Source: Candidatus Binatia bacterium (GTDB taxonomy: Bacteria > Desulfobacterota > Binatia > UBA1149 > CAITLU01). Taken from it: 64,000 nt of DNA. Below are positions 35,604 through 41,112 of this stretch, in pieces; the first letter of the stretch is position 1, and each line of letters starts with the position of its first letter. The notes beneath the pieces were generated by a model that saw only the letters and a program-made list of their open reading frames with translations, made no database searches and was not told the origin of the DNA. A program made the position numbers and the translations under genes. The DNA is taken from contig DASXOZ010000081.1 in assembly GCA_036493895.1 (NCBI GenBank), forward strand, positions 64,201 to 128,200, given 5' to 3'.

Positions 35604-37043
35604 TCAGCCGATCTGGAATTTCTCCAGGCGGTAGCGCAGCGTGTCTTTCGACATGTCCAGAAGCTTTGCGGCCACCGTGCGGTTTCCGTCGGCGTGCTCG
35701 AAGGCCTGGCGCAGCGCAAGCTGCTCGATCTCCTCCAGCGAGATCGGTCCCGACGAAAAATCGAGGCGAAATTCTCCGGGAGAGCGGATCGAGCGCGGAG
35801 CGGTCGATCCGTCGCCGGCGGCCGGCCTGGCGTCGCCGATCGAGAACAGGCTGATGTCTTCCGCGTCAATCACGTCGCGCTGGCTCAGCACGACGGCGCG
35901 CTCCATCGCGTGCGCCAGCTCGCGCACGTTGCCCGGCCACGAATAGGCGGCCAGCGCCGCCCTCGCGCGCTCGGTGAGCTGCGGGGGAGTAAGGCCGTAC
36001 TCTGCCGCGTGGCGTGTCAGGAAATGGTCTGCGAGCAGCACGATGTCGTCTCCGCGTTCGCGAAGCGGCGGTGACTGGATGCGGAACACGTTGATGCGGT
36101 GGTAGAGGTCGGGCAGGAAGCTGCCGCGCTGCACCGCAGCCTCCAGATCCAGGTGCGAGGCCGTGACGACCGAGCAGCGCAGCACGCGGTCGCGCGTGCT
36201 GCCGAGCCTTCGCAGCACCCTTTCGTCGATGACCTTCAGGATCTTGGCCTGCAGGTCGAGGCTCATGCGGCCGATCTCGTCGAGGAAGATCGTTCCGCCT
36301 TCGGCCGCTTCGAAAAGGCCCGGCTTGGAACGAATCGCACCGGTGAAAGCGCCGCGCTCGTAGCCCATCAGCTCGGCTTCGAGAAGATGGTCGGGGAGCG
36401 CGGCGCAGTTCACCTCGATGAACGGCGCGTCGTGGCGCGGAGCTGCGCGGTGGAGCGCGCGCGCGATCAAGCCCTTGCCGGTTCCAGTTTCTCCGGTGAT
36501 GAGGACGGTCGGCCCGCCGCCGCCGCGCTTCTGGTGTGCGGCAAGGCGCAGCAGCAATTCGCGAAGCGCTCGCACGGAGGCAGCTTCGCCGACGAGCCCG
36601 ACGGTATCGGGCTCCGCATCGTCGTGCGCCGAGCCGGGCGCGAGATCGCGCTTGCGGTAGTAGTCGAGCTCGTTGCGCAGGCCCTTGCTCGCCAGGCAGC
36701 GATCGATGATCAGGCCGAGCTCCTGGAGGTTGACCGGCTTGGTGAGATAGTCGCTGGCGCCGGCGCGCATCGCGGCCACGGCATCTTCGACCGTTCCGTG
36801 CGCGGTCAGCAGCACCACCGAGACCGACGGAAACGATTCCTTGACGGATTGGAGAAGTTCGTAGCCGGTCATGCCCGGCAACCGGAAGTCGCTCAGCAGG
36901 ATGTCCGGCTCTCCTTCTTCGATCAGGCGCAGTCCGTCCTCGGCGGTCTCGGCCGCCCGGACGGTGTGCTCGAGCCTTTGCAGGGTGCCGGCGAGATAGC
37001 GCCGCAGGACATCCTCGTCTTCGACCAGAACGATATCGGCCAT
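35604..37043 (-). CDS. NtrC-family sigma-54-dependent response regulator
   Basis: 479 aa from the ATG at 37043, with a strong AAGGAGG site upstream; the frame continues upstream but without a start signal. The receiver domain has the acceptor D52 ('LLSDFRLPGMTG') and Lys in 'YLTKPVN'. The AAA+ domain has Walker A 184-191 ('GETGTGKG'), the sigma-54 contact loop GAFTGA at 231-236 and Walker B 'GGTIFLDEIG'. A Fis-type helix-turn-helix ends the protein ('NRTVAAKLLDMSKDTLRYRLEKF'). A perfect sigma-54 promoter lies in the divergent intergenic region, so the TetR gene is a likely target. The cognate kinase is not adjacent. Confidence 0.95.
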   Translation of the reverse strand: MADIVLVEDEDVLRRYLAGTLQRLEHTVRAAETAEDGLRLIEEGEPDILLSDFRLPGMTGYELLQSVKESFPSVSVVLLTAHGTVEDAVAAMRAGASDYLTKPVNLQELGLIIDRCLASKGLRNELDYYRKRDLAPGSAHDDAEPDTVGLVGEAASVRALRELLLRLAAHQKRGGGGPTVLITGETGTGKGLIARALHRAAPRHDAPFIEVNCAALPDHLLEAELMGYERGAFTGAIRSKPGLFEAAEGGTIFLDEIGRMSLDLQAKILKVIDERVLRRLGSTRDRVLRCSVVTASHLDLEAAVQRGSFLPDLYHRINVFRIQSPPLRERGDDIVLLADHFLTRHAAEYGLTPPQLTERARAALAAYSWPGNVRELAHAMERAVVLSQRDVIDAEDISLFSIGDARPAAGDGSTAPRSIRSPGEFRLDFSSGPISLEEIEQLALRQAFEHADGNRTVAAKLLDMSKDTLRYRLEKFQIG

Positions 37044-37168: not shown

Positions 37169-37207
37169 GGTGGGCAAATGCCCACCGGGCGGGCTTCTCA
37201 CCCGCCC
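37169..37207. promoter_or_regulatory. Two adjacent dyads, candidate activator-binding sites
   Basis: 37169-37186 reads GGTGGGCAAATGCCCACC (8-bp arms around AA). It is followed directly by GGGCGGG-N7-CCCGCCC (37187-37207). The first dyad ends 71 bp before the -24 element of the sigma-54 promoter, within the usual range for upstream activator sites of NtrC-type proteins. Alternatively they are RNA hairpins of a longer leader. Confidence 0.5.
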
Positions 37208-37257
37208 GCCTGACGATACGCTCAGGCTAACCCGCGGGAAAAGCTCAAAGAAGGATT

Positions 37258-37273
37258 TGGCACGACGGTTGCT
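37258..37273 (+). promoter_or_regulatory. Sigma-54 (-24/-12) promoter for the TetR gene
   Basis: TGGCACG-N4-TTGCT matches the -24/-12 consensus (TGGCACG-N4-TTGCW) exactly, in the orientation of the TetR gene. Transcription should start about 12 nt after the -12 GC, near 37284, while the TetR ATG is at 37285. The transcript would therefore be leaderless or nearly so. Confidence 0.8.
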
Positions 37274-37284
37274 CAGGTGGGAGC

Positions 37285-38025
37285 ATGACTTCCACACGCC
37301 TCGCAGAGCGCGCCCAGCAGGCCCAGTCGGGCCGACCGTCCGGAGCTGTCCGCCCCGGCGTTCGCAACCAGATCCTGGAGGCAGCCCTCGTCGAGTTCGC
37401 CGAGAAGGGGTTCCAGGAGGCCTCGCTGGCCGCCATCGCACGGCGCCTCGGCGTCACCGCGCCGCTGGTGCTCTATCACTTCGGATCCAAGGCCAACCTG
37501 TGGCGCGAGGCCCTCGAAGTCTTCTGCGCCAGCTTTGCGGCCACCGTCAACGAGGCCATCGCCCAGGGCAACGAGCTCGAGGGCCGCGATGCGCTGCGCC
37601 TGATCGTGCGCCGCCTCGTGCACTTCTTCGCTGCCAACCGCGCCGCCTACCGGCTCATGCGTGACGAAGGCGGCGTCGATTCCGGTCACGACGAGTGGTT
37701 CGCGACGCGCAACCTGAACCCCGTGATCCGCCGCATCGAGAACGTCTACAACCGCGCGATCCAGGAAGGCGCAATGCGCGCGGCGCCGTTCGAGACGACG
37801 TTCTTCATGATCCTCGGTGCGATCTCCTGCTACCTCGAGTCGCGGGCACTGGCTGCCCATCTTTTCGGCGCAAGCGACGAGCGTGAGCACTGGATCGACG
37901 ACTACGCCGACCAGGTCGTCGGACTCTGCTTCGAGGGCCTGCTCATTGCGCCGCGGCGCGAGCGCCCGATGCTCGCTGCGCTTCGCGCGGCGACGATGAC
38001 GGTTTCGGAGGCTTCACTGCGATGA
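37285..38025 (+). CDS. TetR/AcrR-family transcriptional regulator
   Basis: 246 aa. The N-terminal helix-turn-helix is typical: 'RNQILEAALVEFAEKGFQEASLAAIARRLGVTAPLVLYHFGSKANLWREAL'. The C-terminal ligand-binding part is hydrophobic and of unknown specificity. The ATG at 37285 is the only good start. It is divergent from the NtrC-type activator and preceded by a perfect sigma-54 promoter, which is unusual for a TetR gene. Its stop overlaps the next start (ATGA). Confidence 0.93.
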   Translation: MTSTRLAERAQQAQSGRPSGAVRPGVRNQILEAALVEFAEKGFQEASLAAIARRLGVTAPLVLYHFGSKANLWREALEVFCASFAATVNEAIAQGNELEGRDALRLIVRRLVHFFAANRAAYRLMRDEGGVDSGHDEWFATRNLNPVIRRIENVYNRAIQEGAMRAAPFETTFFMILGAISCYLESRALAAHLFGASDEREHWIDDYADQVVGLCFEGLLIAPRRERPMLAALRAATMTVSEASLR

Positions 38026-38174
38026 GCGACCAGGCCGCGATGAACCAGGGTGTGGCCGCGTTCGTTTCGCTGCACGAGACGCTGCCGCCGGTGGCGATGC
38101 TGCTCGGCGGAGTACCCGCGCTGACGATTCTCGTGATGACGGCCGTGCGCTATGTCGCCAGCGGCACGATCTGA
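38022..38174 (+). CDS. 50-aa single-span membrane protein
   Basis: A short open frame starts at 38022, overlapping the TetR stop by four bases. The translated product is soluble for about 20 residues ('MSDQAAMNQGVAAFVSLHET'), then has one hydrophobic span ('VAMLLGGVPALTILVMTAVRYV'). I do not recognise it. Translational coupling to tetR and the clean membrane span argue that it is real. Function unknown. Confidence 0.6.
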   Translation: MSDQAAMNQGVAAFVSLHETLPPVAMLLGGVPALTILVMTAVRYVASGTI

Positions 38175-38226
38175 CGGTCGATCTGCGGTCGAGCGAACGG
38201 TCGAGAAGGATATCGGGGGAGACGGC

Positions 38227-38568
38227 ATGACGACCGGAAGAGAAAAGGGCGCTGCGGACGGGAGGTCCGCGACGACCACAGCAAGCAGCGCTGCCAGCGG
38301 CACGACCTTGCTGGCAGCAATCGGCTTCGGCGTGGGAGTTCTCGGGCTGCTCGCGCTGCTCGTCGTCGCTTCGCTCACGCCGGTCGCTGCCCACGCGAGT
38401 CTTTCGGCGTCCGCGCCGGGACTGGACGTGCTGGTGAGCGACACCGTGCTGCGCTGCGCGGCGGTCGTGATCTTCCTCTCGGTTGCCGGCGTGCTGTTCC
38501 TCTCGAGCGCGCGCCAGTGGAGCGTGCTCGCGCAGCGGGAGAATGCAGCGCAGCCGCGGCAGCGCTGA
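38227..38568 (+). CDS. 113-aa membrane protein of unknown function
   Basis: It starts at the ATG at 38227 after a GGGGGAGA site. A polar, Thr/Ser/Ala-rich N-terminus is followed by two membrane spans ('LLAAIGFGVGVLGLLALLVVASLT' and 'CAAVVIFLSVAGVLFLSS') and a short basic tail. No family is recognised. It is the last gene of the sigma-54/TetR-led run and is followed after about 260 bp by a strong terminator. Confidence 0.65.
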   Translation: MTTGREKGAADGRSATTTASSAASGTTLLAAIGFGVGVLGLLALLVVASLTPVAAHASLSASAPGLDVLVSDTVLRCAAVVIFLSVAGVLFLSSARQWSVLAQRENAAQPRQR

Positions 38569-38900: not shown

Positions 38901-39281
38901 TCAGCGCGGCGCGAGCATGTCCTGGTACTTCGGCAGGTTCGCGACGAGCAGGTAGAGCGTCGCTGCGCCGACGAACAGTCCCGGTCCCGCTCCGCTGAGA
39001 TCGAGCATGACGTGGAACAGCACGATGTTGAGCGCCAGCGGCGCCAGCACGACGGTTGCAAGCGCGACGTAACGCCCGGCGAGGAAAGCAAGGCCGGTCG
39101 CGATCTCGACGATCGCGACGAGCCGGAGCAGGTAGCCGGTGGCGACGAGAGCGCCGAGGAAGGCCGAGGCTTCCGCGTTGTGCTGGGGATTGGGCGCGAA
39201 TCCGAAAAATTTATTGAGGCCGGCGAACACGAGCAGCAGTCCGAGAAGGATGCGAATCACCTTGGTGAGCATGCTTTCCAT
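38901..39281 (-). CDS. DoxX-family membrane protein
   Basis: 126 aa with four membrane helices. 'IRILLGLLLVFAGLNKFFGF' and 'FLGALVATGYLLRLVAIVEIATGLAFLAGRYVALATVVLAPLALNIVLFHVM' match the DoxX/SURF4-like family, whose members are quinone-linked or redox-stress-related membrane proteins of uncertain activity. AAAGGA precedes the ATG at 39281; an ATG three codons later (39272) is also possible. Confidence 0.88.
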   Translation of the reverse strand: MESMLTKVIRILLGLLLVFAGLNKFFGFAPNPQHNAEASAFLGALVATGYLLRLVAIVEIATGLAFLAGRYVALATVVLAPLALNIVLFHVMLDLSGAGPGLFVGAATLYLLVANLPKYQDMLAPR

Positions 39282-39441: not shown

Positions 39442-41112
39442 GTGCAGATCAAATACGAGGACATTCTTCAGCAGATGACGGGTCCCGGGGGCCCTTTCGA
39501 GATCGCCGTCGAGATGGTCGGCGGCAGGCCGATGAAGAATTTCGTCGCGCGCGAGCGCTCGATCCGCGAAAAAATCGTTGCCGCCTCGGCGCGGGACGGG
39601 CAGACCCTCCTGGTCTACGGGGACCGCCGCTACAGCGATCGCGATTTCGCGCGCCTCGTCTTCGGCGTCGGCGAGCGCCTGGTCGCCGACCACGGGCTGC
39701 AAAAAGGTGACCGCGTCGCCGTGCTCGCGGTCAACCGGCCCGAGTGGCTGCTGGCTGCGTTTGGCGCAACGTCGGTTGCCGGCATCGGCGTCGCGCTCAA
39801 CGGCTGGTGGCAGACCGACGAGCTCGAGTACGGCCTCCGCGACTCCGGCTCTCGCTTCCTCGTCGTCGACGACCGGCTTTTCGCCCGCGTCGCGCCCGTG
39901 CTCGGCCGCATCCCGACGCTCGAGAAAGTCTTCTACGTCGGAGAGCACGCGCCGGCCGGCACGACTCCGTTCTCGTCACTGATGCAGCCGACCGACACGG
40001 TGCCCACGCAGCCCATCGACGAAGACGATCCGTTCATGATCCTCTACACGTCGGGTACGACGGGGCGCTCCAAAGGTTGCATCACCACGCATCGCGGAAC
40101 GATCGCTCAGGTGCTCGGCATCCTGTTCGCGGGCATTGCAGGCTCGATCCTGTCGGGCAGCGAGCTGATTCCTTCGGGCGGCGAGCCTTCGGCGCTCGTC
40201 ACTTCGCCGCTGTTCCACGTCGGCGGACTGCATTCGGGCATCTGCACGCAGATCACGGCCGGCATCAAGATCGTGCTGCTCGAGGGCAAGTTCGATCCCG
40301 ACCGCGTAATGCAGATGATCGAGAAGGAAAAAATCACGATGTGGCCGGCGATCCCGACGATGCTCCACCGCGTCGTGCACTCGCCGAACATCGCCGACTA
40401 CGACCTGTCGAGCCTTCTCAGCGTCTCGTTCGGCGGCGCGCCCACGGCGCCGGAGACCATCGACAGGGCGCGCGCAGTGCTGCCGGTGGAGCCGAGTTTT
40501 TCGAACGCGTACGGCCTTACCGAAACCCACGGCGTCGCGACGGTGAACGCCGGAAAGGCGCTGCTCGGCCGCAAGACCTCGGCCGGCCGCGTCGCGCCGA
40601 TGCTCGACTGCAGGATCGTCGACAGCGACGGTCGCGAAGTCGCCGCAGGCTCGCTCGGCGAAGTGCTGTTTTACGGGCCGACGATCACGCCCGGCTACTG
40701 GAACCGTCCCGACGCGACCGCCGAGACGGTGCGCGACGGCTGGCTGCATACCGGGGACCTCGGCTACCTCGACGAAGAGGGATTTCTCTACATCGTCGAC
40801 CGCGTCAAGGACATGATCCTGCGCGGAGGCGAGAACGTGTACTGCGTCGAGATCGAGAACCTCCTCGCCGAGCACCCGGAGATCGACGAAGCCGCAATCG
40901 TCGGCGTGCCCGACGCCGAGATGGGAGAGCGCGTCAAGGCGATCGTACGCCGTGTCGCCGGCTCGACGATCGATGCCGAAGCGGTGCGCCGCCACGTCGC
41001 CTCGCGCATGGCGGCGTTCAAGGTGCCGGAGTTCGTCGAGTTCACGAACGAGCCGCTGCCGCGAAATCCGGCGGGGAAGATCCTGAAGAACGAGCTTCGA
41101 AAGACGACGTGA
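39442..41112 (+). CDS. Acyl-CoA synthetase (AMP-binding, class I adenylate-forming)
   Basis: 556 aa from a GTG at 39442. The adenylate-forming motifs are complete: 'ILYTSGTTGRSKG' (A3, about 200-213), 'YGLTETHG', 'GWLHTGDLGYLDEEGFLYIVDRVKDMI' and the catalytic Lys region 'PRNPAGKILKNELRK' at the end. It activates a carboxylic acid, most likely a fatty or aromatic acid, to its CoA thioester; specificity is not evident. It stands alone between DoxX (divergent) and the convergent glycan exporter. Confidence 0.92.
   Translation: MQIKYEDILQQMTGPGGPFEIAVEMVGGRPMKNFVARERSIREKIVAASARDGQTLLVYGDRRYSDRDFARLVFGVGERLVADHGLQKGDRVAVLAVNRPEWLLAAFGATSVAGIGVALNGWWQTDELEYGLRDSGSRFLVVDDRLFARVAPVLGRIPTLEKVFYVGEHAPAGTTPFSSLMQPTDTVPTQPIDEDDPFMILYTSGTTGRSKGCITTHRGTIAQVLGILFAGIAGSILSGSELIPSGGEPSALVTSPLFHVGGLHSGICTQITAGIKIVLLEGKFDPDRVMQMIEKEKITMWPAIPTMLHRVVHSPNIADYDLSSLLSVSFGGAPTAPETIDRARAVLPVEPSFSNAYGLTETHGVATVNAGKALLGRKTSAGRVAPMLDCRIVDSDGREVAAGSLGEVLFYGPTITPGYWNRPDATAETVRDGWLHTGDLGYLDEEGFLYIVDRVKDMILRGGENVYCVEIENLLAEHPEIDEAAIVGVPDAEMGERVKAIVRRVAGSTIDAEAVRRHVASRMAAFKVPEFVEFTNEPLPRNPAGKILKNELRKTT

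Follow-up and report, generated by a model that had tools for sequence, protein, structure and literature searches.

A predicted enhancer-dependent sigma-54 control region, conserved within its family, between a response regulator gene and a tetR operon in a Candidatus Binatia bacterium

Does the 241-bp intergenic region that separates a response regulator gene from a divergently oriented tetR gene in a Candidatus Binatia bacterium work as a sigma-54-dependent switch, and if so, what would it switch on? We addressed this question in a 64,000-nucleotide stretch of the genome of this bacterium (here, the window; the genome is designated G000) and in the corresponding loci of related genomes.

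The intergenic region and its predicted activator

The putative sigma-54 promoter is located at positions 37258 to 37273 of the forward strand (TGGCACGACGGTTGCT, TGGCACG-ACGG-TTGCT). It contains the GG-N10-GC core within TGGCAYN5TTGCW, has a predicted +1 at about 37284, and points at the tetR ATG at 37285. Further upstream, at 37169 to 37186, we found the dyad GGTGGGCA-AA-TGCCCACC, a perfect 8+2+8 palindrome (8 of 8 arm positions matching) that is centered at about -106 and separated from the -24 element by 71 bp. The original prediction, which had proposed an exact -24/-12 consensus at these coordinates and an 18-bp dyad about 70 bp upstream, was thus correct on both elements. A second, G+C-rich inverted repeat lies next to the dyad (CGGGCGGG-N7-CCCGCCCG, 37186 to 37208), and the intergenic alignment showed no conservation of this repeat in the relatives.

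The gene on the reverse strand (35604 to 37043) encodes an NtrC-family response regulator, named RR1 here, which is the predicted activator, with the dyad as its predicted enhancer. RR1 harbors a REC domain (PF00072), a sigma-54 AAA+ domain (PF00158) with the GAFTGA motif, and a Fis-type helix-turn-helix (HTH) domain (PF02954), which is the domain set of an NtrC-type bacterial enhancer-binding protein and agrees with the activator with a GAFTGA loop claimed at the outset. This architecture is common to RR1 and to NtrC, AtoC, ZraR, and PrsR-type regulators, and RR1 aligns with solved NtrC-family structures over REC and AAA+. Its best NCBIfam scores, 362 for AtoC (cut-off, 714) and 360 for NtrC (cut-off, 559), were far below the equivalog cut-offs, thus ruling out RR1 as an NtrC or AtoC equivalog, and its predicted site, GTGGGCA-N2-TGCCCAC, is its own. 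RpoN is encoded in G000 (PF04552 at C28:107248-107721) and was detected in 12 of the 13 genomes of the order that were examined, G000 included.

An exact promoter match on one strand of the shuffled intergenic region has a probability of only about 0.00015. Across the G000 genome, on the other hand, the exact sigma-54 motif occurred twice, as often as its reversed control, so the motif match alone is weak. The exact dyad sequence occurs a single time in this genome. At up to two mismatches, we obtained 15 dyad matches versus 16 for the control, and when these near matches were examined as loci, none had a sigma-54 element at the right distance. A genome-wide regulon in G000 was therefore rejected, and the additional dyad copies near -24/-12 promoters for which the original prediction had proposed to search were not found there. 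With one confident module copy, G000 offers no internal support for a regulon; as far as sequence can tell, the significance of the promoter and the dyad derives from their conservation in relatives.

Conservation of the module across the family

Our sample comprised seven genomes of the family among 148 genomes of the class (141 outside the family). Several genomes are fragmented, and absence from one genome is therefore weak evidence. RR1 orthologues were found in six of the seven family genomes (including G000), with 79 to 84% identity in G001, G002, and G004, 62% in G005, and 74% in G006, where a contig end cuts the gene. In all six, RR1 faces a -24/-12 element with a palindrome upstream. 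The elements are TGGCATGGTGGTTGCT in G001, TGGCACACCAGTTGCT in G004, TGGCATGCGTGTTGCA in G002, and, with one mismatch each, TGGCTCGGGAATTGCT in G005 and TGGCACACTACTTGCG in G006. G002 carries two additional copies of the module, with spacings of 89 and 88 bp, in front of unrelated small genes. From the start of GTGGG to the start of the -24 element, we counted 88 bp in G000, G001, G005, G006, and loci a and c of G002, 89 bp in locus b of G002, and 90 bp in G004. G003, a 97% complete genome of the same genus as G002, is devoid of RR1, tetR, the dyad, and the small protein described below. The palindrome is thus conserved, kept at a set distance of 88 to 90 bp in six genomes, present together with the activator, and absent together with it in G003, as expected of an upstream enhancer.

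Alignment of the region from G000, G001, G002, and G004 showed that every fixed -24/-12 base (9 of 9) is invariant, as are 13 of the 18 dyad bases, versus 37 of 241 positions overall (hypergeometric p of about 2e-8 for promoter and dyad each, a value that overstates independence, two of the four genomes being congeners). In G005 and G006, both arms of the dyad (GGGGATATCCCC) are altered together, GTGGGCA..TGCCCAC having become GTGGGGA..TCCCCAC, which argues that the symmetry of the palindrome itself matters. A combined dyad-plus-promoter pattern, which G004 escapes through one dyad mismatch, gave 7 matches in the seven family genomes (5 at RR1 loci and 2 at the extra G002 copies) versus 9 scattered matches among the 141 class genomes outside the family; with the reversed control, we obtained four. 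In the wider phylum, matches outside the family were scattered and had no consistent dyad or spacing. Taken together, these comparisons show at the sequence level that the module is kept throughout the family and that it co-occurs with RR1. It is very probable that the region as a whole is an enhancer-dependent sigma-54 control region and that the switch exists as predicted.

We also considered an IHF site between the dyad and the promoter. G004 and the three G002 copies share a YAA-N4-TTGAAA-like element at one offset, but it was unconvincing in G001, G005, G006, and G000, where its lack of clarity counts against the enhancer reading, and this candidate was rejected.

The operon, its transcript, and the signal

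The tetR gene (37285 to 38025, forward strand) encodes a regulator of 246 amino acids with TetR_N (PF00440) and TetR_C_29 (PF17938) domains, that is, an HTH domain plus a TetR-like C-terminal domain, as in other TetR-family regulators; the nearest solved chain is 2qtq. It differs from known members of the family in having no equivalog match in NCBIfam and in its predicted sigma-54 control, and its relatives from named genomes are distant. The tetR stop codon overlaps, as ATGA, the start of a gene for a 50-residue single-pass membrane peptide (LPPVAMLLGGVPALTILVM, 38022 to 38174, forward strand), an overlap seen in G000 and G001. It is followed on the same strand by a gene for a second small membrane protein (38152 to 38568), of 138 amino acids from the listed open reading frame or 86 from position 38308, and G004 and G002 have a similar gene in this place. 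Both small proteins have hydropathy typical of membrane segments.

The membrane peptide (about 48 residues; consensus, ETLPxVxLLLGGVPxLTVLVMTAARYVA) was found in 6 of the 148 genomes of the class, each time at the RR1 locus. The promoter faces tetR in G000, G001, G002, G004, and G005. At the G006 locus, the peptide and a histidine kinase stand behind the promoter and tetR is missing; the G005 locus has tetR, peptide, and kinase. Since G006 lacks tetR at this locus, tetR is not the constant target; from the genome comparison, the constant member of the operon and its predicted output is the peptide of about 48 residues and not tetR. The original prediction of an activator turning on a repressor and two small membrane proteins therefore holds in part: comparison supports the sigma-54 promoter, the local NtrC-type activator, the palindrome at an enhancer position, and the two genes, but the repressor as target is incomplete, given the G006 locus. 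Beside the operon are a gene for a DoxX-family membrane protein (38901 to 39281, reverse strand) and an acyl-CoA ligase gene (39442 to 41112, forward strand), the best NCBIfam match of which, steroid-24-oyl-CoA synthetase, is below the cut-off; G004 has a similar ligase gene downstream of its operon. Both neighbors are possible candidate targets of TetR.

Sigma-54 promoters start transcription 11 to 14 nucleotides past the -12 element, with +1 about 12 nucleotides past the -12 base. Counting 12 nucleotides places the predicted +1 at 37284, give or take about 2. In the tetR frame, a stop codon occurs at 37228 to 37230, and no ATG, GTG, or TTG occurs between this stop and 37285 or between 37285 and the HTH. 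The predicted start thus falls at the tetR ATG, the only in-frame start available, and, judged from this spacing, the tetR mRNA should be leaderless. The distance from the -12 box to the first usable ATG or GTG is 11 to 13 nucleotides in the five tetR copies of the family and 10 to 12 nucleotides in the extra G002 copies. For G004 and G002, the true tetR start may instead be an in-frame ATG lying a few codons further on. In Sinorhizobium meliloti, leaderless transcripts and sigma-54 promoters have both been mapped, each separately (PMC3616915).

No kinase gene lies beside RR1 in G000, and a kinase occurs in the RR1-linked operon of two relatives, G005 and G006. The G005 kinase used as a query gave 29 matches in G000 (there are dozens per genome), with no clear orthologue and, among the matches listed, none on the window contig. 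The description of RR1 as sensor-linked in the original prediction thus has its basis only in the REC domain and not in an adjoining kinase, and the signal would have to come from a kinase that this search did not single out.

Competing explanations and known systems

We consider it likely that phosphorylated RR1, acting from the dyad, activates sigma-54 transcription of tetR and the two small membrane protein genes. Bound to the dyad as an enhancer, RR1 would contact, by looping as in the NtrC family, a sigma-54 polymerase held at 37258 to 37273, and its GAFTGA-containing AAA+ domain would open the promoter at the expense of ATP. The transcript would begin on the tetR ATG or no more than a few bases from it and would extend over tetR and both of the overlapping small genes, so that the module would deliver TetR and membrane peptides. 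More tentatively, and with less than even confidence, we propose a sigma-54 circuit specific to this family, in which the undescribed membrane peptide (LPxVxLLLGGVPxLTxLVM), made from mRNAs that would start at their own initiation codons, would be the constant output and tetR and the kinase would be interchangeable feedback parts.

Since TetR proteins often bind 16- to 20-bp palindromes near their own genes, and since the dyad and tetR adjoin in five genomes, the dyad might instead be a TetR operator serving autoregulation, with RR1 activating from another site. This is unlikely. In G006 the dyad is retained, at 88 bp, although the locus has no tetR; two copies of the dyad in G002 precede unrelated genes; and a dyad centered at about -106 relative to the predicted start, at constant spacing from the -24 element, is placed like an enhancer rather than a promoter-blocking operator. 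Also improbable is activation of the -24/-12 element by another NtrC-type regulator bound at the dyad. Such regulators are numerous in these genomes, and one of them, the RR1 paralogue RR2, is 55 to 62% identical to RR1. The module nevertheless tracks RR1: G007 and G009 to G012, which have RR2 and in which RR1 was not detected, gave no module match, and the recognition segments of the Fis-type HTH differ between RR1 and RR2. That the consensus arose by chance, with sigma-70-dependent transcription of tetR and a dyad that is a hairpin or an unrelated site, would fit the genome-wide count of exact sigma-54 matches, no higher than that of the reversed control, but is very hard to reconcile with the position, fixed spacing, and conservation of the elements in six family genomes, and we regard it as highly improbable.

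The proposed activation by RR1 from the dyad has its closest parallel in sigma-54 regulons of Desulfovibrio vulgaris, reconstructed by comparative genomics, whose enhancer-binding proteins are encoded locally (PMC4641369). As here, the activator gene lies beside the target operon and a palindrome stands upstream of a conserved sigma-54 promoter; the main text of that paper makes no mention of TetR, whereas the operon in the window consists of tetR and small membrane protein genes and its promoter abuts the start codon. In a literature search with partial coverage, titles and abstracts on sigma-54 and TetR, and on RpoN and leaderless mRNAs, revealed no matching circuit. The circuit joins a familiar class as a new member. 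A few of its features are uncommon; its mechanism is not new. It supplies a specific cis-regulatory code (site, spacing, and activator) for a regulator in a family with seven genomes in the collection. It also draws attention to a conserved membrane peptide and to the coincidence of sigma-54 promoters with start codons, and it is a useful lead in annotating genomes and in asking whether sigma-54 transcripts can be leaderless.

RR2, too, is divergent from other genes with -24/-12-like sites, exact in G007, with one mismatch in G000 (CGGCACGGCGGTTGCT) and with one or two elsewhere, and because of this a divergent sigma-54 target looks like a habit of the RR1/RR2 group of regulators. Palindromes at the RR2 loci differ from one another in sequence, have no fixed spacing, and do not clearly match the RR1 dyad. 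The neighbors of RR2 (L105 to L115; G001, G002, G004, G006, G007, and G009 to G012) are largely conserved across the order and include a membrane protein of about 840 residues, a secreted protein of about 670 residues starting near GDPVDPATG..YP, and a secreted protein of about 170 residues.

At one extra G002 copy (L116:5409-5552, L052:9409-9480), the module is followed by an open reading frame of 47 amino acids that starts with MMFQPTTTK, resembling the TetR N terminus of the same genome (MIYQPTAK), and by a gene for 137 amino acids that resembles one found downstream of tetR, which suggests a duplication of the promoter and 5' end. On contig C213 of G002 (L117:3922-4086), three CRISPR-like direct repeats, with about 29 bp conserved and a spacing of 60 to 61, abut an extra module copy, and the last of these repeats supplies one arm of the dyad (GTGGGGAAAT).
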